Shown: positions 266-18,088 of the stretch, piece by piece
How the letters are laid out: the number at the start of each line of letters is the position of its first letter
Numbering within the stretch: the first letter of the stretch is position 1
Virus record (IMG/VR): IMGVR_UViG_3300017781_000165
Span: 1-22,175 of that record
DNA: 22,175 nt
DNA from: a virus
Strand: one strand, 5' to 3'
Notes under the pieces: generated by a model
Database searches by the model: none
The model's input: only the letters and a program-made list of their open reading frames with translations
Told to the model about the DNA's origin: nothing
Translations under genes and position numbers: made by a program

Positions 266-1198
266 TTATAGCAATCCTGCTAATTTTTTCATTCTACTTG
301 AAAATTGATTAGATTCAACAATCACTTCCTTTGCAGGAGCAGTTGATTTAGTTGGTCTAGATGCAATTCCCTCTTTAATTGTCGTTTTCTTGCTAGCACC
401 TGCAGTTAAAGATTCAGCTAAAGTAGAATAAACTAATTTAACTTCTCTAGTACTTTGAGCTCTATCAAGAGTTTCGATGATTTTCATCTTTTGTCCTTCA
501 GTTAAGTTGTGAGACTTGAATAATTTGTTTGAGAACAATAATTTAGCGTTTAATAAATTAACTTCATTTATTGTAGCTTTTAATGAACGAATAGTAGAAT
601 AAGCTTCTTCAAGTTCTTCTTCTTTCTTTTCCATTTCGTCATTCTCATTAACTTCTTCGTCTTCATCTTCTTCTGTTAAAGATTTGATGATTTCATCTAA
701 GTCGATGTCTTCTTCCATGTCTTCAGTTTCTTCCATGTCTTCATCTTCTTTGTAAGCCATTTCAGTTTTTTCTTCGTCTTCGTCTTCTTCAAGTTCTCTG
801 ATAATTTCATCAAGATCTAAGTCTTCATCTTCTTCCATATCAGCCATTTCTTCTGGATCTTCGTCATGCTCACCTTCAGTAAGTTTGTCAACAACCTTTA
901 AGTTGTTATCTTCAGTTCCAGGAGCAGCGGATGTAGTTTCAGTTTCAGCTTTTTCTTCGTCATTACCGTCAACTTGATCTACCTTGTTGTCACCTTTACC
1001 TAATCCAGATGAATCAGTTTGTTCTTCTAATTCGTCTTCATCATTATCCTCAGCTTCTTCTTCTATCTTTTTAGATAGCATAGATTGAAGTTTTGGGGTA
1101 AAAGCTTCTTCAAGGGCTAGCTTTGCATTTGCAATTGCAGTTTCTCTAACAGCTTTTGCGTCAGCGATAGCTTCCTTAAGCAATTTGCTTTCAGCCAT
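266..1198 (-). CDS. gp22: Prohead core scaffold protein gp22
   Basis: A 310-aa, strongly acidic protein placed immediately before gp23, the T4 position of the main scaffold protein. It is assembled inside the prohead and removed by gp21 proteolysis. The N-terminus (MAESKLLKEAIADAKAV) and the basic C-terminal end (FSSRMKKLAGLL) are typical of gp22 of marine T4-like phages. Residues 45-185 are almost all Glu/Asp. Within them a segment is duplicated: 121-143 and 161-182 both read MEED..DLDEII, followed by a Leu and EDEDEE. Residues 186-235 look like a coiled coil. The ATG at 1198 has AAGGAG upstream. The gene has a leader of about 150 bases downstream of a terminator (1347-1371), so it probably starts its own transcript together with gp23. 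Candidate gp21 sites (L-x-E) occur, for example LTE near residues 232-234. Confidence 0.9.
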   Translation of the reverse strand: MAESKLLKEAIADAKAVRETAIANAKLALEEAFTPKLQSMLSKKIEEEAEDNDEDELEEQTDSSGLGKGDNKVDQVDGNDEEKAETETTSAAPGTEDNNLKVVDKLTEGEHDEDPEEMADMEEDEDLDLDEIIRELEEDEDEEKTEMAYKEDEDMEETEDMEEDIDLDEIIKSLTEEDEDEEVNENDEMEKKEEELEEAYSTIRSLKATINEVNLLNAKLLFSNKLFKSHNLTEGQKMKIIETLDRAQSTREVKLVYSTLAESLTAGASKKTTIKEGIASRPTKSTAPAKEVIVESNQFSSRMKKLAGLL

Positions 1199-1249: not shown

Positions 1250-1316
1250 ATAGAAATTTAATTTTGATCTGTTACTTCCATATAGAGATGGGGTATTTTT
1301 AGATCGTTTTACTGAT

Positions 1317-1324
1317 ATAAATAT
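1317..1324. promoter_or_regulatory. Conserved intergenic octamer, copy A (ATAAATAT)
   Basis: Lies 118 bases upstream of the gp22 start and just beyond the terminator that ends the bS21 unit. Read on the plus strand, 1316-1323 is TATAAATA, the T4 late-promoter box, but this points away from gp22. In the direction of the genes it reads ATATTTAT. A promoter here would suit the need for a new gp22-gp23 transcript. Confidence 0.4.
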
Positions 1325-1346
1325 ATACAAATATACAAAAAGTAAA

Positions 1347-1371
1347 AAAGGGAACAAAAAATGTTCCCTTT
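1347..1371 (-). terminator. Intrinsic terminator after the bS21 gene
   Basis: On the minus strand a 10-bp perfect stem (AAAGGGAACA / TGTTCCCTTT) with a 5-base loop is followed by TTTACTTTTT. It lies 29 bases beyond the bS21 stop codon and upstream of gp22, and so separates the two transcription units. Confidence 0.85.
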
Positions 1372-1399
1372 AAATAATATTTTAGTGATTTTAAGCTTT

Positions 1400-1759
1400 T
1401 TAGCTAGCTTTTCCATCAATAATTGCTGTCCAGCAATGTCCTTTGTCATGTCTTTCTGATTTTCTGTCTAAAGTCCATTGCCAGCGTTTGGCTTCGTCAA
1501 GCTCTCTCCTTCTTCTCATTGATGGTTTTTCATAATAACGGTTATTTCTAAGCGTCATCATTGTATCATCATCTTTTAGTTGTCTCTTTAAATATTTTAA
1601 AGCTTTTTCTAAAGTTCCTGGAGCTTCATCTGGTACTTTTACTGCTAGTCCATGACCGGGGACATAAAAGTCCTCTCTCCTATGACGTTTGCCCTTAAAG
1701 GGTCTTTTTTTAAAACCGTCTCTATTTTGATTACGGTTGTTTTTAAAGTTTTTTTGCAT
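1400..1759 (-). CDS. rpsU: Ribosomal protein bS21 homologue with N- and C-terminal extensions
   Basis: A 119-aa basic protein. Residues 38-92 match bS21: a short strand (LAVKVPDEAP), a helix (EKALKYLKRQLKDD), then LRNNRYYEKPSMRRRRELDE, which contains the bS21 signature (Y/F)-E-K-P-S followed by a basic helix. bS21 is a small-subunit protein at the mRNA exit/anti-Shine-Dalgarno region and takes part in initiation. Phage-encoded bS21 is known from viral genomes and metagenomes. Here the core is flanked by an Asn/Lys/Arg-rich N-terminal tail (1-35) and a C-terminal extension with Trp residues (93-119), both beyond the usual bacterial length of about 70 aa. No clear Shine-Dalgarno sequence precedes the ATG at 1759. 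The gene sits alone between two intrinsic terminators, amid head genes, so it appears to be an independent transcription unit. Confidence 0.88.
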   Translation of the reverse strand: MQKNFKNNRNQNRDGFKKRPFKGKRHRREDFYVPGHGLAVKVPDEAPGTLEKALKYLKRQLKDDDTMMTLRNNRYYEKPSMRRRRELDEAKRWQWTLDRKSERHDKGHCWTAIIDGKAS

Positions 1760-1773
1760 AAATTTGTTTTTAG

Positions 1774-1785
1774 TTAAACGTTTAA
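1774..1785. promoter_or_regulatory. 12-bp perfect palindrome upstream of bS21 gene
   Basis: TTAAACGTTTAA is self-complementary and lies 15-26 bases upstream of the bS21 start codon, inside a 95-bp gap. Its position would suit an operator or a small mRNA hairpin near the initiation site. No protein that binds it can be named. Confidence 0.3.
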
Positions 1786-1801
1786 TTACTTTAATATAAA
1801 C

Positions 1802-1831
1802 AAAAAAAATGACATATAAAAATATATGCCA
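1802..1831 (-). terminator. Intrinsic terminator after the 346-aa protein gene
   Basis: On the minus strand a 9-bp stem (TGGCATATA / TATATGTCA, with one G-U pair) and a 4-base loop are followed by eight T. It ends the gp20-gp21 group of genes 24 bases beyond the stop codon at 1855 and isolates the bS21 gene from it. Confidence 0.8.
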
Positions 1832-1854
1832 CTTAATTTCACTTTTATTATTTT

Positions 1855-2895
1855 TTATCTAAGATCGATATAGTCTTTGCTTGTGTCTACCTTGTTAAGA
1901 TCTGCCTTTAATGTTTTGAATTTTGATTGTATACCTCTTGCATATTTAAGCATTTCTTTTTGATAGTACTTTTCTTCACTCCAAGAGGCTTTATCTCCAG
2001 CCTTTAACTTAGCTGCTTTATCTCTGTCTGCACCTTTTACTGCACTATTTTCTGCTCTTAAGTAATACTCAAAATCTTGTAGTATATCTCTATATGCTCG
2101 CTGTACTTTAGTAGCAGAATCGTTCCAACCAGAAGAAACCTTTTTCTTCTTTAACATGGCTAACTGCTTGTCAACAGTAGATTTATACATTTTAGTAACT
2201 GCATCTACCATTTTAATTATTTGGTCTCCTGGACTAGAATTTGCTAATCTATCTCTTAGTATTGTTTCATATCTGCTTCTGTTTTGTTGAGCAACCGTTT
2301 TTGCGTCAATAAGTGCAGTTGCTCCTGCCTTAGCTGCCGCTCTACTTGCCTTTAAGTCTTTAGAATCTCCTATTTTAGTAAGGTCAATAGTAATTACTTC
2401 ATCTGCAACCTCTGCAAACCTCTTATAGTTATGTAATTGGTCTAGATTATCACCCATTGCAGAGCCAGTATTACGACCTTTAGATTTTTCACCAGTAGCA
2501 GAATATGTTGTCTTACCAGTACTTCTGTCGTATCTGTCTCTACTAACGTGAATTTTTTCTTTTCCTCTAGTTACACCAATAAGTCCTGGTCTAATTGTAA
2601 GGTCATATGAATAGCCACTTTTTGCAAATGGATTTTTTTTATCTTTATTCACAAAAAAGAAGTTTACTTTTTTAGGATCTGGTCCTTTACCAAAAGCTTC
2701 TTCTGGAGCGTTTGCCCAATCTACACTATATGTTTTAGCAAATGCTTGAAAGAATTTTGCGTCTGTGCCTTTTAATTTGCCGTATAGTTTACTGGCCGTT
2801 TTAGATTGAAACTTTTCAGTTATTATACCTGCTTTTTCTGCCAGTACTGAAGCTATAGCTTCTTTTACTAATTTTCTGAACTGAGATTTTTTCAT
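1855..2895 (-). CDS. Unrecognised 346-aa protein with capsid-targeting-like N-terminus
   Basis: I do not recognise a catalytic family. The first 20 residues (MKKSQFRKLVKEAIASVLAE) form an amphipathic helix ending in L-A-E. This is the pattern of T4 capsid-targeting peptides, cut by gp21 after (I/L)-x-E. The body (about 22-170) is rich in Lys/Gly/Tyr with a possible beta-rich section (SGYSYDLTIRPGLIGV, near 92-107). The C-terminal part (about 180-346) is mostly helical and basic, with a likely coiled coil. Starts at ATG 2895 with AGGGA upstream, ten bases after the preceding stop codon, and ends at an intrinsic terminator. Position among head genes plus the N-terminus suggest an internal head protein packaged with DNA; an additional core protein is the alternative. 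Function is unknown. Confidence 0.8.
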   Translation of the reverse strand: MKKSQFRKLVKEAIASVLAEKAGIITEKFQSKTASKLYGKLKGTDAKFFQAFAKTYSVDWANAPEEAFGKGPDPKKVNFFFVNKDKKNPFAKSGYSYDLTIRPGLIGVTRGKEKIHVSRDRYDRSTGKTTYSATGEKSKGRNTGSAMGDNLDQLHNYKRFAEVADEVITIDLTKIGDSKDLKASRAAAKAGATALIDAKTVAQQNRSRYETILRDRLANSSPGDQIIKMVDAVTKMYKSTVDKQLAMLKKKKVSSGWNDSATKVQRAYRDILQDFEYYLRAENSAVKGADRDKAAKLKAGDKASWSEEKYYQKEMLKYARGIQSKFKTLKADLNKVDTSKDYIDLR

Positions 2896-3381: not shown

Positions 3382-3663
3382 TTACCTCTTTAATACGAAT
3401 ATAGTTGTATCAGCGTCATCTGCGGTTGCTCGCATTACTCCGATTTCATGTATAACACCTGCTGACAGATGTTCTATTCTCATGCTTCCGCCTCTTGCAA
3501 GATCAATTGATCCATTTTGAGCTCCGGCTGATGATGCAGATATCATGATTGCAGCTGCACCTACATTAGAACCAGAACTAAAGTCTCTGTTTCCATTACT
3601 TACGGCTACTACTTCATTATATTTTCCAAATGGTCCGTATTTATCTAATTGAGTTGTTTTCAT
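3382..3663 (-). CDS. Small 93-aa protein following the prohead protease
   Basis: I chose ATG 3661-3663, which overlaps the gp21 stop codon as TAATG and has GGAGG upstream, over an ATG 21 bases further upstream that lies inside gp21 and has no ribosome site. The 93-residue product begins MKTTQLDKYGPFGKYNEVV and is rich in Ala, Ser and Gly (SSGSNVGAAAIMISASSAGA). It ends in alternating hydrophobic stretches (VIHEIGVMRA, TTIFVLKR) that would suit a small beta-barrel. No signal peptide or membrane segment is seen. I do not recognise a family. Translational coupling to gp21 suggests a role in head building or in the virion. Confidence 0.75.
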   Translation of the reverse strand: MKTTQLDKYGPFGKYNEVVAVSNGNRDFSSGSNVGAAAIMISASSAGAQNGSIDLARGGSMRIEHLSAGVIHEIGVMRATADDADTTIFVLKR

Positions 3664-4337
3664 TAATGTCCTCCACAGCCACAAGAATTCTTTTTACTGG
3701 GAGTTGGTATTTCACATTTACCAGTTATTTCACAAAGAATATCTGAAACTAAGTTATTTATTTTTGTATATTTATTTTTAATAGTAGACTTTGCGCCAGC
3801 TGATTCATTCATTGCTGAAGGTTTCATAAATGCGCCGTGAGTTGATGGATTAGAAACAAAGTCCCAACATATTAACTCAAAGTCGTCTTTTACTTGTACA
3901 GATCCCGGGTCTTCGCGCAATTCTTCTACACTTCCCAAGCCTCTACTGCTAATACCAAGTTTTATACCACTTCTAAGTAGTTCTTTAAGTATATTTCCGG
4001 CTGGAGTTCCAAGTACTTCTACTTTTCCCATGACGTCATCACCATTCCACCAAACTTCTAATACGTTATGTGAAACATTTTGTAAATTTACAACAGATGA
4101 TTCTGGATGGTCTAATTCTCCAAGGGCTCTTTTTTCTGATATTTGAACCTTTTTGTAATTTGCAACTTCTCGCATTAATATTTCTTTTGGATATACTCTA
4201 CCGTTTTGATTTTTTGACTCGGCTCTTTGTAGACAACCTGTTACTATTACTCTACCATTATTTTTTGATTCTGATTCATTTATCATTTGAGGAGATACTT
4301 CAAACGATGTATAATCAATAAGTAGTGACTTAGACAT
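3663..4337 (-). CDS. gp21: Prohead core serine protease gp21
   Basis: A 224-aa protein of the T4 gp21 protease family, which matures the prohead by cutting scaffold, internal and capsid proteins after (I/L)-x-E. The catalytic His is in GELDHPESSVVNLQNVSH (His77) and the nucleophile Ser is in KLGISSRGLGSV (Ser130 or Ser131). NGRVYPKEIL (45-54) is another family motif. It lies between core genes and gp22/gp23, as in T4. The C-terminal tail has an L-C-E site (201-203), a likely self-cleavage point, and ends in the Cys/Gly-rich CGCGGH. The ATG lies within an 8-bp overlap with the preceding small gene and has GGAG upstream. Confidence 0.93.
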   Translation of the reverse strand: MSKSLLIDYTSFEVSPQMINESESKNNGRVIVTGCLQRAESKNQNGRVYPKEILMREVANYKKVQISEKRALGELDHPESSVVNLQNVSHNVLEVWWNGDDVMGKVEVLGTPAGNILKELLRSGIKLGISSRGLGSVEELREDPGSVQVKDDFELICWDFVSNPSTHGAFMKPSAMNESAGAKSTIKNKYTKINNLVSDILCEITGKCEIPTPSKKNSCGCGGH

Positions 4338-5886: not shown

Positions 5887-7740
5887 TTATGTTAAGTCTC
5901 TATCTATTAAATTAGACTCGTCTAACATGTCTGTACTTTCTTTTAGTATAGATGGTTTATTTTTAAATAATTCTATTGAATTTGCAATTTCTCTAGCTAA
6001 AGGGCTTCCACCTTTATACTTATTTTTAATTCCCCGGTCTCTATTTTTAACATCGCGCTTCATTTTTTCATTGCCAAGCGGATCTCTTCCTCTAGCTCCA
6101 TTATCTGTTCCATAGTAATCTCCTTCTACGGGTCTTCCAACATCTGCGTCTGTTTTTCCGCCTCTTGTTTTTCTAGTATCGCCTGAAGCTCTAAGTCTAT
6201 CTCGTTTATTTTTTTCTTTTGCTTCTTCAGCTACAGTTGGCTGTTTTGCAGGATCTTTTCCGTCGCTTTCGATCATACTTCTTCTATATTTTTGTATGGT
6301 ATCTTCAACAACTTTTTCTCGTTCAAGTTTGACTTCTTCGTCAGACATTCCAAATATTTTATCATATACCCAATCTTCAGAAAGCATTTGACCGCTTCTC
6401 ATATCGTCAGCTAACCTGTTTTTAGAAGACCAAAGCTCTATTTTTTCTTGTTCGTATATTGTTGATGGATTTGTCAACTCTAATTTAAAGTCAACTAGGT
6501 CTTCATCAGTATATCCTTGGGTGTATAGGTGTACAAGGGCTATTTTTGTTAATTCAGAAGTAGCAATTCTTTGAATTCTTTCTATTGTTCTTGCAAATCT
6601 AACGTCCATGGCTGCTAAGGTTGCTTTTCCATCTACTCCTTCTTCGTATCCAACAAATGCCTTTGGAACCCTAAGGGCTGCTAGCATTCTATTTTTAAGA
6701 TATTCTATATCTTCTGTGCCTGTCCATTCCATTCCGCCTAATGAATCTATACTAGTACCACTGTTTCCGCCTCTTGTTGGTAAATAAAAATCTTCCATCA
6801 TGTTTTGAAGATTAAATTTAAGGTTATAGTCTCCAGTATTCTGATCGATATATGGAGTTTTTTTCATTCTATTTACTACTTGTTGCATATAGTTATCAAC
6901 TTCACTTGGCGGTATATTTCCAATATCAATATTAAATACCCTTTTTTCTGGTGCTCTCATAATTCTATGAATCATCATGGCATCTTCCATAAGACTAAGC
7001 TGTTTCCATGTTTTTCTAGCTCCTTCTAATACAGATTTACCGTATGGCAAAAAGTTTGTATCACTAAGCATTCTAAAATGGGCTATCTCATAGTTTTCAA
7101 AGTAAGTTTTTGCCGTTGCAGTTTTGTGGTAATTTGAACCTTGTCCTCCAAAAGTAGGGTCATGCATAAATCTAACATATTCTGGTTTTGTTGGATCTGT
7201 TCCTTCTTCTCTTACAACTTCGTAAACCGATATTGGTTGAACACCCGTTACGCCAACCTTTTCTAAAATATCCATCTTTAAATAAAAATCGCCGTATTTA
7301 ACCATATTTCTTATCCATGGCCATAGATTAAATTCAATATTTAAAACATCGTAAAATAAATTGTTGAGTATATCCTTTATCTCTTCTTTACCGGTTGTGA
7401 TTTTTAATACGTCTCCAAATTCGTTTTTTATTGTTGATTCATCAGAGTATATATCTAATGCTGAAGAGATTATTGAATCGCTATCCATTGACTCATACTC
7501 TGAAAACAGTTCCATTCTCATTTGGGCAAAAGCATTACTTGGGTTGTAAACACTATTACTATTTGTTCCAGAAGTGTGTAATCTATTATATCTGTCTACT
7601 AATGAGTTAGATGCTAAGTTTCCAGACGATTGTAGTCTGGATGGATCTACCACTTTTAATTTATTATCTCCAACTTTTCTAACAACTGTAGATGTTGAAA
7701 ATGCTTTTTTTAATCTTCCAAAAAATGTTTTATCTGCCAT
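5887..7740 (-). CDS. gp20: Portal vertex protein gp20
   Basis: A 617-aa T4-type portal subunit; twelve form the ring at the packaging vertex, where terminase docks and the tail joins. Family features seen in order: the N-terminal SLVDRYNRL and YESMDSDSIISSALDIYSDE (about 46-102), LPYGKSVLEGARKTWKQL (231-248), MMIHRIMRAPEKRVFNIDIG (255-274), YMQQVVNRMKKTPYID (284-299), LPTRGGNSGTSIDSLGG (320-336) and YLKNRMLAALRVPKAFVG (347-364). The C-terminal 100 residues are Lys/Arg/Gly/Asp-rich and probably flexible. Starts at ATG 7740, with AGGGGA upstream, 16 bases after the terminase stop codon. The gene directly follows gp17: T4 genes 18 and 19 are not in between. Confidence 0.95.
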   Translation of the reverse strand: MADKTFFGRLKKAFSTSTVVRKVGDNKLKVVDPSRLQSSGNLASNSLVDRYNRLHTSGTNSNSVYNPSNAFAQMRMELFSEYESMDSDSIISSALDIYSDESTIKNEFGDVLKITTGKEEIKDILNNLFYDVLNIEFNLWPWIRNMVKYGDFYLKMDILEKVGVTGVQPISVYEVVREEGTDPTKPEYVRFMHDPTFGGQGSNYHKTATAKTYFENYEIAHFRMLSDTNFLPYGKSVLEGARKTWKQLSLMEDAMMIHRIMRAPEKRVFNIDIGNIPPSEVDNYMQQVVNRMKKTPYIDQNTGDYNLKFNLQNMMEDFYLPTRGGNSGTSIDSLGGMEWTGTEDIEYLKNRMLAALRVPKAFVGYEEGVDGKATLAAMDVRFARTIERIQRIATSELTKIALVHLYTQGYTDEDLVDFKLELTNPSTIYEQEKIELWSSKNRLADDMRSGQMLSEDWVYDKIFGMSDEEVKLEREKVVEDTIQKYRRSMIESDGKDPAKQPTVAEEAKEKNKRDRLRASGDTRKTRGGKTDADVGRPVEGDYYGTDNGARGRDPLGNEKMKRDVKNRDRGIKNKYKGGSPLAREIANSIELFKNKPSILKESTDMLDESNLIDRDLT

Positions 7741-7756
7741 AATTTTCCCCTATAAC

Positions 7757-9340
7757 CTATTTAATTAACCAGGTTAAATCTTCGTCTGAGCCATTTATTT
7801 TTTGACTCCATTGATTCTTATTTAAACCTGTATTTGTGTATATTCCACCGGATGATTTTCCAATTCTATTTATTGCTAATTTATCCAGCTCTATACCTTG
7901 TTGTTTTAATTTTAATGCAGTGTCTCTAACCCACATGCCAATACTAAACGCCATTACTAGGTCATCATTGTATCCTCTTTGGGCTTCTGCTTTGCTTCCA
8001 TTCCATACAAATACTCTAAGCTCTTCTAGTAATCTTTTTGACCTAATTACACACCCTTTTTCTCTTAAATAAATATCAAGTTTGGAGATTAAAAGTGGTC
8101 TGGTTTTGCTAGATGTTGTAAATCCTGGTGTCATTTGACTTCTAGATTTTAAATCATAACCTTTCGTTAACTGAGTTGTGGCATCTGTAACCCCGTCTTG
8201 CTTATACGTATAATATAAGTTTTTATAATCTCTATCAATAGCGCTCTGTATTGCTCCAAAACCTACACTTGCATTTTCAATAACTAATAATGCATCGTTA
8301 TATTCTGTTGCAACGCCTACTAGCATGTTTCCAAAGTCTTTAGGTGTTAATTGGCCTCTATACTCTGCAACTTGGGTTACGGTTTCAACGTCTAATACAT
8401 GAAAAGTAGAGTAATCACTACCATCACCTCTAGCAACATCAGCTACTACCATGTAATTTTTAGTATAGTCACAAGATTCCCAAATCCAATAATTTCCATC
8501 AAATCCTCTTTGTTCTTTAGGATTTTGCATTTGAGAGTCTTTAAACCATTCAAGTAAGCTTCCATCAACAACACTATTACCCGAACTAATAAAATCACAA
8601 TCACATTCTTGTGAAGCTAATTTTGGTCCTAATAGTTCATCTTGCTCGTTTCTCCAATCTTGATTTCTTTCTGGATGTACTGACCAGTGAAGTCTTATTG
8701 TATTAAAACTATTTGTACCTTCTTCTGCCTTTACCCATGTTTTATGAAAGAAATTACCTATGCCATTTGGAGTAGATAAAACAATTGCTTTACCTCCTGT
8801 TGCTAATGTTTGTTGTGCTGAGGCCCAAATTTCTTCAACGCCTTTAATAAATGCTGCTTCATCTATGATTAGTAATGAAAGTGCTTCAGATCTACCAGCA
8901 TCTCCTGAACTAGAAACTGCCTTTATTTGAGAGCCATTTTTAAACCTAAGACTTAGCTTATTATCTTCAACGGTAACCCCCTTTAACCAACTAGGAAGAT
9001 AGTTATGCATTTCTCTTACTTTAGTTACTAAGTTTTTTGCAACTTCTTGTTTTGTTGCAATTACAAGAACATTTTTGTCCTGTTGAAATAACATTAGCCA
9101 AAGAGAATATCCAGCAGATATTGTAGAAATACCCAATTGTCTGGATTTTAATATTATATTATAATCGTAATGCTTAAATTGTTCAAGAGATCTTTCTTGA
9201 AACTGATATAGATTAAATGGAATTCTTCCTCGAGTTGGGTGTTGGATTTGACAATATTTTCTCATAAAGTAGACTGGGTCTTGAGCGCACTTTATGTATT
9301 CGTCTTTTATTACCTGCTTAAGGCCTTTAGTCTTCTTCAT
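7757..9340 (-). CDS. gp17: Large terminase subunit gp17 (packaging ATPase/nuclease)
   Basis: A 527-aa DNA-packaging motor protein. The ATPase domain has the terminase Walker A-like KSRQLGIST (65-73), Walker B LLIIDEAAF (156-164, Asp160/Glu161) and coupling motif LSTPNG (188-193). The nuclease domain begins with MVVADVARGDGSDYSTF (297-313, Asp301 as metal ligand), with LLVIENASVG (351-360) and a later acidic pair in YNDDLVMAFSIG. Length and order match T4-type TerL. The ATG at 9340 lacks a Shine-Dalgarno sequence and is abutted by the AT motif of copy C. A small terminase (gp16) is not recognised in this window. Confidence 0.96.
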   Translation of the reverse strand: MKKTKGLKQVIKDEYIKCAQDPVYFMRKYCQIQHPTRGRIPFNLYQFQERSLEQFKHYDYNIILKSRQLGISTISAGYSLWLMLFQQDKNVLVIATKQEVAKNLVTKVREMHNYLPSWLKGVTVEDNKLSLRFKNGSQIKAVSSSGDAGRSEALSLLIIDEAAFIKGVEEIWASAQQTLATGGKAIVLSTPNGIGNFFHKTWVKAEEGTNSFNTIRLHWSVHPERNQDWRNEQDELLGPKLASQECDCDFISSGNSVVDGSLLEWFKDSQMQNPKEQRGFDGNYWIWESCDYTKNYMVVADVARGDGSDYSTFHVLDVETVTQVAEYRGQLTPKDFGNMLVGVATEYNDALLVIENASVGFGAIQSAIDRDYKNLYYTYKQDGVTDATTQLTKGYDLKSRSQMTPGFTTSSKTRPLLISKLDIYLREKGCVIRSKRLLEELRVFVWNGSKAEAQRGYNDDLVMAFSIGMWVRDTALKLKQQGIELDKLAINRIGKSSGGIYTNTGLNKNQWSQKINGSDEDLTWLIK

Positions 9341-11132: not shown

Positions 11133-13538
11133 TTAGAAAGTCATCATACCAGCAATTTGATTTACTGGGGCAAATGCACCTGTTAATTTATATGTGTTTC
11201 CTTTGTATATAAAAACCAATCCTTCACTTGGAATTATAGTTTTAAATCCTCCGATAGCTGCAATTTTTTGCAATTGTTGAGTCATTCTATTTAATTTTTT
11301 AAGGTCTCCACCTTTTCTAACATCATTAATAGCTTTTGCTACCTGTTTTCTAACATTTTGAATTGCTTTATCTGGATTAGCTGCTAAGAATCCTTCCACA
11401 TTTTTAAGTACTTCAGCGCCTAATTCAAAAAATAATGTTTCAAAAGGAAGCATATTATTTTTTACTTGGTCTGCATGTTTTATTTTATCAAATTCTTTTG
11501 CTTTTTTAAGTAGGTCTTCACTAGGTATAGTTTTCTTGTCTAATCTAAATGACTTATCAAAGAATGCCCAACGTTTAACCAATCCCATTTTAATTGTATT
11601 ATCAACACCTTTCATTTTTTTATCAACAAAGTTTTCCCACCAAGCTTGATGATATTCAGCAAATGTTGATGTGTCTTTCATATTAAACTTTTTCATAAGT
11701 TTTTTAAGTTTTTCAGTGAAATAAGGTTTTTTTGCTGAGTAGTCTTGGTGAGGTTTCATCTTCAGAATCTTAGGTCCAATTATAGAAAAGTTTTTTTGAA
11801 CGCTTTGATTTATTTGTGCAATCATTCCTGCAAGAATTCTTGCTCCGTCTTGAACTGACCCTATGGCTTTGCCATCTTTATATTGTAATACATTATGAAA
11901 CTGTAGGTATGGTGCATCATACGTAATCACATTGGCAGAGGCAGGAAACATTATTTCCATATTTACCCAGTTATTACCGCCATTAAATATTTTTTCTTGT
12001 TGTTTAGCATTAAGACCTCCAATTGCTTTTGCTAGATCTTTCATTGCAAAAGTAAATGCTTTTTCTATATTGCCTCTACCTTTAAATTTTGCAGCAACGG
12101 CTTTATAGTCCATTCCACCACGCTTAAGGTCTCCAGTATTTCTAGCAGCTAGCATTTTGCCATTCCAACTAATAAATAAATTTTGGCCATCAGTTTTTTC
12201 TGTTGCTGCTTTTTCTAAATCAAGATTTCCTTGAAGAGCAAGGTTAATTATGTTTTTAAAGTCTCCAAATGTTAAAGCTCTATCATCGAATGGATGGGAC
12301 ATGTGACCATATGCTCCACCTTCAACTAATAATATTTGATTAGCTAGCCATTCACCTAAACTTTCTTTAACAGTATGGATAGATGTAGGTTTAATAACGG
12401 TTGGCTCTTGAAAGTGTATATTGGTTTTTTTCTGTTTGCTCAACATTTTTTGTAGCTTTTTTTCTTCTTTGTCTATTTTTATAGGTTCTTTTTTAGATTG
12501 TGTAGATGATATTTCAGCACCTAGAAAGTTCAAAAATTCATATCCAGCAGATTGAGCTATATATTTTGACCAACTACTCCATCTAGTATAAGCGTCTCTT
12601 CCTCTTTTATCTTGAAGGTAGTTTGTTCCAGCAACAACATCTTTTGCTCCTGTACCCGGTACACCAACAGGAAAATATGAAACTGCTGCGGTTGGTCCTC
12701 CAGTAAAGTCTTTCTTAAACGCTGTATCGTGTTGAAAAAATTCATTTTCTCCAGCAATATAATCTATAACCTCCATTCCCATTTTTTCAGCTAAGGCTTT
12801 ATTACTTGTTCGATATGCTTTTTGAGTACCATAAAAATATCTTGGTCCGTCATCAACATCAGCTGACCCTGGGGCTGTTTTTGAAGCTTCACTTATTATA
12901 TCTAATATATTACTGTTTTGGCAAAAGTCTTCAATGGTTTCATTTAATTTTTCTAGCTTATTTACTATAAGGTCATAATTTTTTGTGTGGCCAAATATTC
13001 CCTTAAAAACCTTTAACTTTTCAACCTTGTTTAATTCTTTATCTCCCAAAGCTTTTCTAATTGCCGTGCCGCTCATTTCTCCATATCCTGGTACATTCAT
13101 TGAAACATGAGGAGCAATTATGAGATATGCTCCTTCTTTATATCCAATCTCAGCCTTGCCTTTCCAATCTTGAAAAAACTTACCCTTAAGTCTTCCTGCG
13201 TCTTTTGAACCTACCATAAATACTGCTGCTGTAGTTTTAGGGTCATATTTTTTTAATATTTCTTCTGCCTTGTATGGGTTTTTTACTTTTACAACGTTTT
13301 TTATTCCGTGGGAATTTATTATTTTTCTTTTTTCAGCAAATGAAAATGGTGATTTTGGTAAATTTATTTTATCGCTTGTTCCAACATAAGAGTCTTTAAA
13401 CTTTGACTGGAGCCACTTAAATGTTTTTGCGTGGTGAGCTCCCATAGGTTGAAATCTTCCAGGATATATTGCAACAATAGTTTTAATATTTGTTTCCTCA
13501 AGTAAAATTTTATCTGATAAATATTTTCCTAAACTCAT
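11133..13538 (-). CDS. Fusion protein: NMN-adenylyltransferase-like domain, middle domain and RNA-ligase-like nucleotidyltransferase
   Basis: 801 aa. Domain 1 (about 17-205) is a nucleotidylyltransferase of the NMNAT/CoaD superfamily: IYPGRFQPMGAHHAKTF (24-40, nucleotide-binding loop with His35-His36) and the C-terminal MSGTAIRKAL (155-164, 'ISxTxxR'). Domain 2 (about 218-345) starts ASKTAPGSADVDDGPRYFYG and is not recognised. Domain 3 (about 408-801) carries ligase/capping-type motifs in order: I, EKTDGQN (447-453, Lys448 as adenylylated residue); Ia-like AARNTGD (464-470); III/IIIa-like VNMEIMFP (525-532); IV, EGLVF (772-776); a terminal Lys in TYKL (Lys784). The N-terminus SLGKYLSDKILLE resembles an internal segment SLGEWLANQILLVE (393-406). 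Both, and ILDIISE (211-217), end in (I/L)-x-E. It overlaps the kinase gene by ATGA. Substrate is unknown; NAD metabolism or RNA repair are candidates. Confidence 0.82.
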   Translation of the reverse strand: MSLGKYLSDKILLEETNIKTIVAIYPGRFQPMGAHHAKTFKWLQSKFKDSYVGTSDKINLPKSPFSFAEKRKIINSHGIKNVVKVKNPYKAEEILKKYDPKTTAAVFMVGSKDAGRLKGKFFQDWKGKAEIGYKEGAYLIIAPHVSMNVPGYGEMSGTAIRKALGDKELNKVEKLKVFKGIFGHTKNYDLIVNKLEKLNETIEDFCQNSNILDIISEASKTAPGSADVDDGPRYFYGTQKAYRTSNKALAEKMGMEVIDYIAGENEFFQHDTAFKKDFTGGPTAAVSYFPVGVPGTGAKDVVAGTNYLQDKRGRDAYTRWSSWSKYIAQSAGYEFLNFLGAEISSTQSKKEPIKIDKEEKKLQKMLSKQKKTNIHFQEPTVIKPTSIHTVKESLGEWLANQILLVEGGAYGHMSHPFDDRALTFGDFKNIINLALQGNLDLEKAATEKTDGQNLFISWNGKMLAARNTGDLKRGGMDYKAVAAKFKGRGNIEKAFTFAMKDLAKAIGGLNAKQQEKIFNGGNNWVNMEIMFPASANVITYDAPYLQFHNVLQYKDGKAIGSVQDGARILAGMIAQINQSVQKNFSIIGPKILKMKPHQDYSAKKPYFTEKLKKLMKKFNMKDTSTFAEYHQAWWENFVDKKMKGVDNTIKMGLVKRWAFFDKSFRLDKKTIPSEDLLKKAKEFDKIKHADQVKNNMLPFETLFFELGAEVLKNVEGFLAANPDKAIQNVRKQVAKAINDVRKGGDLKKLNRMTQQLQKIAAIGGFKTIIPSEGLVFIYKGNTYKLTGAFAPVNQIAGMMTF

Positions 13539-14239
13539 TTTGATTTCCTAAGCTCTAATTCTTTTTTAATCCACTGTTTGGCTATGTGATTTTGTACGGG
13601 TCTTGTTACAAATTCTCTTGCCTTTGATTTTATAATATCTGCAAAATCTTTTTTTTCTGAATTATCTACAACTAGCATATTGCTTGAACCAAATAAACTT
13701 TGGAATTTACCTAGGTTATTTTGTACTGCCTGCCAAGAAGATTTTACTAATTCTGTTGGAAGTTTTCTTTCTCTTTCTTGGTTTCTTTCAAGAGCAACGT
13801 CTAGGTCAGTGTTGACAAATATCATAAAGCAGTCATAACCTACAGCCTGTAATCTTTTTTTCTGCTTAGCTATATTAGGATAATTTTTACCTGTTCCATC
13901 TATGAGTAAACCTAGCCGTCCATTTATATAATTTTTTAATGCAGCATCTCTAACCTTTTTACTTTTTTGCCTTAGTTGCATGGCTTGAGAATATTCTGAT
14001 GGTTTTAATTTAGCTATGTCTTGGCTTAATCCTTTCATCTGTAAATATGTTTCAAAATACTTATCGCTGTTTACAGATTTCAACCCTTGAGCAGAAACAA
14101 AAGGCATTTTTTCAGGCATACCAAATAGACTTGACGCTGCATATGATTTACCACTACCAGGGCCACCTGCAGTAAATACCGCTTTGAATATACCTGGATC
14201 GTATATGCCTTCGTTTAATATGTCTACTAGTTTAATCAT
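13535..14239 (-). CDS. P-loop kinase (zeta-toxin / polynucleotide-kinase-like)
   Basis: A 234-aa P-loop phosphotransferase. Walker A is GGPGSGKS (25-32); VNSDKYFE (56-63) sits where zeta-type and PNK-type kinases place a substrate-binding acid. LGLLIDGTGKN (109-119, Asp114) ends a core strand, and ERNQERERKLP (151-161) is an Arg-rich lid. The N-terminal ten residues (MIKLVDILNE) end in L-N-E, a possible gp21 site. The stop codon overlaps the start of the NMNAT/ligase fusion gene (ATGA), so the two are translationally coupled. Kinase plus adenylyltransferase recalls NadR (nicotinamide riboside kinase + NMNAT); kinase plus ligase recalls phage RNA repair. The start at 14239 has no Shine-Dalgarno sequence. 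Confidence 0.82.
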   Translation of the reverse strand: MIKLVDILNEGIYDPGIFKAVFTAGGPGSGKSYAASSLFGMPEKMPFVSAQGLKSVNSDKYFETYLQMKGLSQDIAKLKPSEYSQAMQLRQKSKKVRDAALKNYINGRLGLLIDGTGKNYPNIAKQKKRLQAVGYDCFMIFVNTDLDVALERNQERERKLPTELVKSSWQAVQNNLGKFQSLFGSSNMLVVDNSEKKDFADIIKSKAREFVTRPVQNHIAKQWIKKELELRKSK

Positions 14240-17193: not shown

Positions 17194-17772
17194 TTATTTT
17201 CTTTTTGAAAGTACTTTTACAACATTATTAATAACGTTTCCTGCTTCATTTATAGGATTAGTACTAACATATTCTGCTACTATTTTATTTAGCTTATTTT
17301 TCTTTACGGAAAGATTGTTTAAGTTTATATCTTCCTTTATAAGCAATTTTAATATGTTTATTACATGTTGTTTTTCTGATAAGGTTACTGTATCTTCCTT
17401 TATTCCGCTAACAACAATTTTTGGAGTAGTAGATTCTTGTATAGTTTCTTTTTTAGATTGATTTTGACTAACTACCTCAACAGTTACTTTTTTTGATTGT
17501 TGAACTTCAAAGTCGCTTTGCCACGGAATAAAATAAGTATCTTCGGCTATTACCTCTAATTTAATACTTCCCTTAGAAGATTCATCTATCAACCCTCTTA
17601 ATTTTTTTATTGGTACTACACATTTCCCGTTAGAATCAACTTTACCTTTAAAAAGTAAATTTAATTCTGGAGTTTCAACTATTAGCCTGGCAGATGTTTT
17701 TGCCATGCTTGCTCCTGAAATATTAATATCACACTCAAATAGTTCCGTTTTATCAGTAAATAATTTATACAT
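17194..17772 (-). CDS. Putative structural protein with Ig-like N-terminal half (192 aa)
   Basis: Residues 1-95 look like one or two beta-sandwich repeats: ELFECDINISGASMAKTSAR, LIVETPELNLLFKGKV, KCVVPIKKLRGLI, SIKLEVIAEDTYFIPWQSDF. A Ser/Thr/Gln-rich linker follows (VSQNQSKKETIQESTT). The C-terminal 70 residues are a helical bundle (VINILKLLIKEDINLNNLSV, KLNKIVAEYVSTN). Starts at ATG 17772, overlapping the preceding gene by 8 bp, and lies 11 bp before the large fibre gene, so it is part of the fibre operon. A connector or fibre-attachment protein is plausible. No named family is recognised. Confidence 0.75.
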   Translation of the reverse strand: MYKLFTDKTELFECDINISGASMAKTSARLIVETPELNLLFKGKVDSNGKCVVPIKKLRGLIDESSKGSIKLEVIAEDTYFIPWQSDFEVQQSKKVTVEVVSQNQSKKETIQESTTPKIVVSGIKEDTVTLSEKQHVINILKLLIKEDINLNNLSVKKNKLNKIVAEYVSTNPINEAGNVINNVVKVLSKRK

Positions 17773-18088
17773 CTATATTCTCCGCTAATATTTTAGCTTT
17801 TATTTCCTTTATTAGTAGTTTAACGTCTTCTACTTTTATTTCTATATCTTTTACTTCTTTATGTTTGTCATACATTTGTATACCTTTTCTCTTAAGTATT
17901 AAACGTATTAGTTTTTTCTTTTTCTCTTCAGGTAATTTGTCAACTACTGTAGAAACCGATCCAGATCCACCACCATCAATTTGATCAGCAATTTCTTGAA
18001 TTAGCTGGACATCATCCCAAGTATATGGATTATCGTTCCACGCAAAATCTGCCGTGTTCCATTTAAATGTTGTTATATTTTGTGCCAT
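17765..18088 (-). CDS. Small structural protein with aromatic repeats (107 aa)
   Basis: The N-terminus has short repeats rich in Trp and Asn/Asp: FKWNTADFAWNDNPYTWDDV (8-27), a pattern I associate with small structural proteins of marine T4-like phages. A glycine hinge (DGGGSGSVS) is followed by a Lys-rich helical C-terminal half (LPEEKKKKLIRLILKRKG and VKLLIKEIKAKILAENIDV). No signal peptide or membrane segment. The ATG at 18088 has no Shine-Dalgarno sequence; the octamer of copy F lies two bases upstream. Its stop overlaps the next gene's start by 8 bp. Probably a virion or assembly protein of the fibre unit. Confidence 0.78.
   Translation of the reverse strand: MAQNITTFKWNTADFAWNDNPYTWDDVQLIQEIADQIDGGGSGSVSTVVDKLPEEKKKKLIRLILKRKGIQMYDKHKEVKDIEIKVEDVKLLIKEIKAKILAENIDV

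Follow-up and report, generated by a model that had tools for sequence, protein, structure and literature searches.

In the freshwater Bacteroidetes phages described by Chen et al. 2022 (PMC9723584), ribosomal protein bS21 is encoded within the TerL/portal/protease/capsid block of T4-like genomes, on the opposite strand from the structural genes, and in metatranscriptomes it is transcribed late, with the core structural genes but not in one operon with them; all 61 bS21 proteins of that study carry an aromatic residue at position 54. In Flavobacterium johnsoniae, as in Bacteroidia, Tyr54 of bS21 helps to hide the anti-Shine-Dalgarno (anti-SD) sequence in the ribosome, and a very strong Shine-Dalgarno (SD) sequence on the bS21 mRNA serves autoregulation (7JIL; PMC9976891). 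The substitution Y54A alone raises the translation of SD reporters there, 3-fold in vivo for rpsU'-gfp, and does not lower the yield of an SD-less template in vitro (PMC9976891). For the bS21 of the Pelagibacter phage HTVC008M, incorporation into 70S ribosomes of E. coli is reported (Mizuno et al. 2019, PMC6375957, cited after PMC9723584). Finally, phage Mel-JY01 (PP395634) has a gene annotated RpsU between its prohead protease and capsid genes, with Lys at position 54 and SD-rich structural genes around it.

Here we report the analysis of a 22,175-base viral fragment from a marine, T4-like phage, whose whole length is called the window below. On the whole, both the type of its bS21 gene and the location are familiar from other phages. 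As in the phages of Chen et al. 2022, it lies within the TerL/portal/protease/capsid block and outside the core structural operon; unlike theirs, it shares the (-) strand with the structural genes, has Arg instead of an aromatic residue at position 54, and possesses two flanking terminators and an invariant SD-less leader. It belongs to the same protein family as the F. johnsoniae bS21 and shares the KPS motif, whereas both Tyr54 and the strong SD are missing in the phage copy. According to the citing source, HTVC008M likewise provides a bS21 of a marine phage; however, the window protein has no match in the phage collection at E 0.01, and thus is not a close relative of the HTVC008M protein. 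Mel-JY01, whose TerL is the closest among isolates (58%), differs in that no insulating terminators are seen, the spacer is short with a weak SD (AAGGAC), and the N-terminus is short. For two features of the window gene we found no earlier description, namely that its SD-less leader is both invariant and insulated, and that an SD-rich phage has a non-aromatic residue at position 54.

The bS21 gene and its neighbourhood

The product of the gene matches Ribosomal_S21 (PF01165) over residues 48-92 with 41 bits against a cut-off of 27, which is exceeded by all members of the bS21 family of the window, and it also matches PHROG 21469 'ribosomal protein S21' and solved bS21 chains in the PDB (best E 1e-4). 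The motif YEKPS is present, and KP[ST] is conserved in alignments of the basic helical core. These results bear out the bS21 core with YEKPS which had been recognized in an earlier sequence-only reading. The protein consists of a basic N-terminal extension (residues 1-46), the core (47-105) and a C-terminal tail ending CWTAIIDGKAS, with helices predicted at 49-63, 66-73 and 79-105 and a pLDDT of about 90 at residues 81-100; a Foldseek search of the PDB with the whole, low-confidence model gave no significant match. In a bS21 tree, which has too few columns, the phage proteins mostly cluster together and not with any cellular clade.

On either side, the same (-) strand carries head genes of the T4-like kind, namely portal, protease, TerL, a scaffold-like gene and the beginning of the gene for the major capsid protein (Table 1). 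The start codon of bS21 is the ATG at 1759 and the upstream gene ends at 1855, which leaves the 95-bp gap noticed in the sequence-only reading. Elsewhere in the window, a Zeta-toxin/AAA_33-like P-loop kinase (13535-14239, (-); PF06414, 41 bits) adjoins a cytidylyltransferase-like protein. In addition, a relative of the window phage (L030, contig IMGVR_UViG_3300001450_000031) carries a permuted tmRNA gene at 6259-6418 (-), detected by RF04321 with 71 bits against a gathering threshold of 47, for which ARAGORN gives the tag GEQVELAMAA.

Table 1. Coordinates of the bS21 unit and of neighbouring genes in the window
Feature	Position	Strand	Remarks
Scaffold-like gene, next after bS21	266..1198	(-)	SD AAGGAG; start LLKEAIADAK conserved in relatives
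Promoter-like region TATATTTGTATATATTTATAT of gene 266-1198	1315..1338	(-)	same motif class as the bS21 element
Downstream intrinsic terminator	1347..1371	(-)	10 pairs, 5-nt loop, T-tract; found by scan
bS21 homologue, 119 aa	1400..1759	(-)	PF01165, PHROG, PDB chains, family alignment
SD-less 5' leader	1760..1788	(-)	dyad TTAAACGTTTAA (1774-1785), A-rich stretch before ATG; AATTAAACGTTTAACTAAA in viral contigs; no SD pairing
Promoter-like element TTTATATTAAAG	1789..1800	(-)	variant of the TATTTATA motif of the clade; kept in every leader of the family
Upstream terminator-type hairpin	1807..1834	(-)	12 pairs, 4-nt loop, T8 tract 1802-1809
Gene upstream of bS21, 346 aa, no family	1855..2895	(-)	another gene in its place in L005/L006
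Prohead protease (Peptidase_S77, PF03420)	3663..4337	(-)	112 bits
T4-like portal protein	5887..7740	(-)	255 bits
Terminase large subunit TerL (PF03237)	7757..9340	(-)	58% to Mel-JY01, 55% to Flavobacterium phage immuto

Terminators and promoter-like element around bS21

Read along the (-) strand, the gene 1855-2895 is followed by a terminator hairpin, the promoter-like TTTATATTA, a 29-nt SD-less leader, bS21, the terminator 1371-1347, the promoter-like TATATTTGTATATATTTATAT and the scaffold-like gene. The downstream terminator has the most pairs (tied with one site on the + strand) among the 14 sites found by the terminator scan in 20 kb, where 8.4 are expected, and its stems differ but stay paired in the relatives G003, G007, G022 and G025. 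The upstream hairpin, with the stem AAGTGGCATATA/TATATGTCATTT in the window, is A+U-rich and unflagged by the scan; it is near invariant in the family, its arms differ yet still pair in G022 and G025, and it is absent from L064. Hairpins were compared by individual folds, and the counting of pairs in MAFFT alignments was dropped, as length differences misalign the arms. Such changed but paired arms are stronger evidence for terminators than the scan. The order of terminator, promoter-like element, gene and terminator is conserved in relatives even with a different upstream gene (G012, L005/L006), and bS21 is probably a transcription unit of its own. The paired stems of changed sequence thus uphold the insulation by two terminators proposed earlier; the proposed coordinates hold for 1347-1371 and not for 1802-1831, the upstream hairpin being located at 1807-1834 with its T-tract at 1802-1809.

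The bS21 element TTTATATTA and the promoter-like motif of the clade have the 7-mer TTTATAT in common, which was counted in 59 of the family's 97 intergenic gaps against 9.4 expected, some of these gaps being the bS21 leaders themselves; the fuller TATTTATA occurs in 46 of 92 family gaps against 3.4 expected. The motif also stands before the scaffold and TerL genes in the window, and immuto likewise has it after T-tracts. This sharing with head genes, together with the published finding that phage bS21 is transcribed late (PMC9723584), argues for late expression of bS21 from a separate, putative promoter. Of the two parts of the earlier proposal, a putative promoter of its own is supported by the conserved element in the insulated unit, while a timing unlike that of the head genes finds no support, given the shared motif and the published late bS21.

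Position 54, Shine-Dalgarno use and host

Tyr54 of F. johnsoniae aligns with Arg92 of the window protein, and the family of the window has R or A at this position, the neighbouring Trp93 being not conserved. Therefore the aromatic residue of the Bacteroidia-type, anti-SD hiding bS21 is absent, and the strong SD of Bacteroidia-type autoregulation is likewise absent from all family leaders. The Arg at this position argues for an exposed anti-SD and hence for SD-led mRNAs. In two contigs of the Flavobacteriales MAG NAT55 (L223 and L224, putative phage or host contigs), the bS21 has Leu at position 54.

Strict SDs were defined as GGAG/GAGG at -20..-4 and counted from mechanical ATG starts. By this count, 39% of the called genes in the window have an SD against 6% in shuffles, bS21 belonging to those without; the proportions are 42-61% in relatives and 2% in the Flavobacterium phage immuto, which has no bS21. 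We then present an overall view of the TerL relatives, which were collected and read for bS21 and SD use, with a TerL tree built for them. In the TerL clade, the median strict SD proportion is 0.36 for the 13 genomes with a non-aromatic position 54, 0.09 for the 9 with Tyr/Phe54, and 0.05 for the 8 without bS21; rank tests, which ignore kinship, give p 0.012 for non-aromatic against aromatic and p 0.0045 for bS21 against none. On the TerL tree there are 3-4 independent contrasts, of which the differing ones are nearly always as expected, none being significant and the sign test giving no support. Two exceptions are a 120-kb relative (G041; L138-L143) with an R54 bS21 and a strict SD proportion of 0.01, and L064 with an A54 bS21 and 0.08. 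Both contradict the presence of bS21 as a sufficient cause of SD use. Conversely, G044, which has no bS21 and is nested in the SD-rich clade, has no SD at its portal, protease, scaffold and capsid genes.

In several relatives the SDs are concentrated in one part of the genome. In the TerL block, 11/20 genes have SDs in G035, 9/14 in G040 and 15/20 in G028, against 0/29, 0/18 and 2/19 elsewhere, and Mel-JY01 has 16/49 strict SDs at its structural end against 12/153 elsewhere; Fisher values for these blocks are optimistic, because the borders were set after inspection of the data. A sugar-metabolism-like block upstream of TerL in G028, G040 and G035 (L184, L188, L175-L176) is almost SD-free, its SD-poor genes being glycosyltransferase- and epimerase-like as judged from their sequences. 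The block pattern is seen in relatives; the genes of the window have SDs on both sides of TerL.

For the host of the family of the window, no evidence was obtained from the leader search, the outer-membrane protein, the epimerase or the TerL matches. The outer-membrane protein of G001 has one weak match each in Bacteroidota and Pseudomonadota, and the sugar epimerase of the SD-free block reaches 51% in Bacteroidota and up to 53% in Pseudomonadota. Among TerL matches in genome contigs, 5 of 10 are in Bacteroidota MAGs and the others scattered, with noisy binning. The TerL neighbours, that is immuto on Flavobacterium, these 5 of 10 matches and the promoters of Mel-JY01, point to Bacteroidota. 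The promoter type TTG-N17-21-TAnnTTTG marks Bacteroidia. Such promoters are found in 17 gaps of Mel-JY01 (L026, L048, L245, L246) against 0.8 expected, so that this phage, listed as a phage of Microcystis, may in reality infect a member of Bacteroidota and not Microcystis. In the family of the window, matches to this promoter type were mostly one orthologous region running through a terminator T-tract and were discarded; their absence is uninformative on the host, since immuto, which is known to infect Flavobacterium, lacks them too.

Possible working of the phage bS21 and its leader

We propose, with a probability of roughly 0.4, that a late, monocistronic bS21 leaves the anti-SD free and so helps SD-led late mRNAs. 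The gene would be expressed late from its own single-gene unit in the head cassette, through a promoter-like element of the head-gene kind. Since its mRNA has no SD, translation by ordinary host ribosomes could proceed without pairing to the anti-SD, and the product would probably replace the host bS21 on the 30S subunit. Because Arg and not an aromatic residue stands in place of Tyr54, the anti-SD of the 16S rRNA would then remain accessible, and ribosomes with the phage bS21 would favour SD-led mRNAs, which are common among the structural genes of the clade. A stronger form of this proposal is rather unlikely in our view: in phages of SD-blind Bacteroidia, a Tyr54-less bS21 would swap into the host ribosomes and turn on SD recognition, the SD-less late bS21 unit and structural-gene SDs working only after the swap making up a two-step translational switch. 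Besides, bS21 is a frequent phage gene, and a natural class of phages that lacks Tyr54 and is SD-rich stands beside a class that has Tyr54 and is SD-poor. The finding that loss of Tyr54 enables SD use in Flavobacterium (McNutt et al., PMC9976891) gives context to these natural phage alleles, with which the vague idea that phage bS21 favours phage mRNAs becomes simply testable.

The most likely reading is an exchange of bS21 in the ribosome, late in expression, by which the anti-SD is left free, and mimicry of the host is nearly as likely. The Arg may merely mirror an SD-using host, for example a member of Bacteroidota outside Bacteroidia, since R or K is the usual state of position 54 outside Bacteroidia, including other members of GTDB Bacteroidota; a host-type bS21 would then top up or replace the host protein without changing the choice of mRNAs, and the SDs would reflect host habit. 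Consistent with this, 24 of the 30 best-scoring bS21 loci in a sample of the GTDB phylum Bacteroidota have R and 5 have Y, Pseudomonadota bS21 has K/R, and SD class and bS21 class both track TerL clades. However, the SD-free genes of G035 and G040 beside an SD-rich structural block would be odd in an SD-using host, and Mel-JY01 combines its Bacteroidia-type promoter gaps with an SD-rich late region.

The leader of bS21 is considered next. The sequence preceding the ATG is ttaaagtaattaaacgtttaactaaaaacaaattt, with an anti-SD duplex energy of +1.5 kcal/mol, which agrees with the earlier observation that bS21 has no visible SD; none was found in any leader of the family. About 63 nt before bS21 are nearly invariant across viral contigs. 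The core AATTAAACGTTTAACTAAA occurs in 18 viral contigs, in 17 of them upstream of bS21 and in one as a chance match inside another gene, and a search for the leader pattern in 84,980 genomes found none. Between the window and G001 the leader is 99% identical over 88 nt, and the fourfold sites of TerL agree at 54/115; in the more distant G003 and G007 the leader is 80% identical. It is retained where the upstream gene differs (L005/L006, G012), and thus belongs to bS21 rather than to its neighbour. An open frame runs through parts of it but is interrupted by 1-nt insertions in L005/L006, and the leader was rejected as part of a longer protein. The first 45 coding nucleotides are also almost identical between the window and L005, the proteins being just 56% identical, and joint recombination of leader and bS21 5' end is also possible.

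An improbable alternative to the proposed exchange is that the leader acts as a gene-specific regulatory element, either an operator containing the dyad TTAAACGTTTAA or an RNA element recognized by bS21, setting the level or time of bS21, possibly unlike the head genes. Its near invariance and its restriction to bS21 would suit such a role, as would the departure of the bS21 element from the consensus (TTTATATTA, not TATTTATA); yet G022, G025 and L064, which are more distant, lack the dyad, the relatives have no stable RNA structure in common apart from the terminator, and a terminator followed by the promoter motif is found at other units of the clade as well. The model of the sequence-only reading, a separate, non-late timing with a shift of initiation toward SD-less phage mRNAs, agrees with the separate unit and the SD-less bS21 mRNA but is very improbable, as the promoter-like motif is of the head-gene kind, bS21 is expressed late in related phages (PMC9723584), Tyr54 is replaced by Arg92, and the SD-rich genes of this phage do not fit an aid to SD-less mRNAs.

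In addition, the ATG of TerL (7757-9340) and that of the gene 17765-18088 are immediately preceded by the motif ATATTTATAT. Motifs of this type abut the ATG in 12 family gaps, 1 of them with an SD, and the mRNAs concerned could be leaderless late mRNAs.
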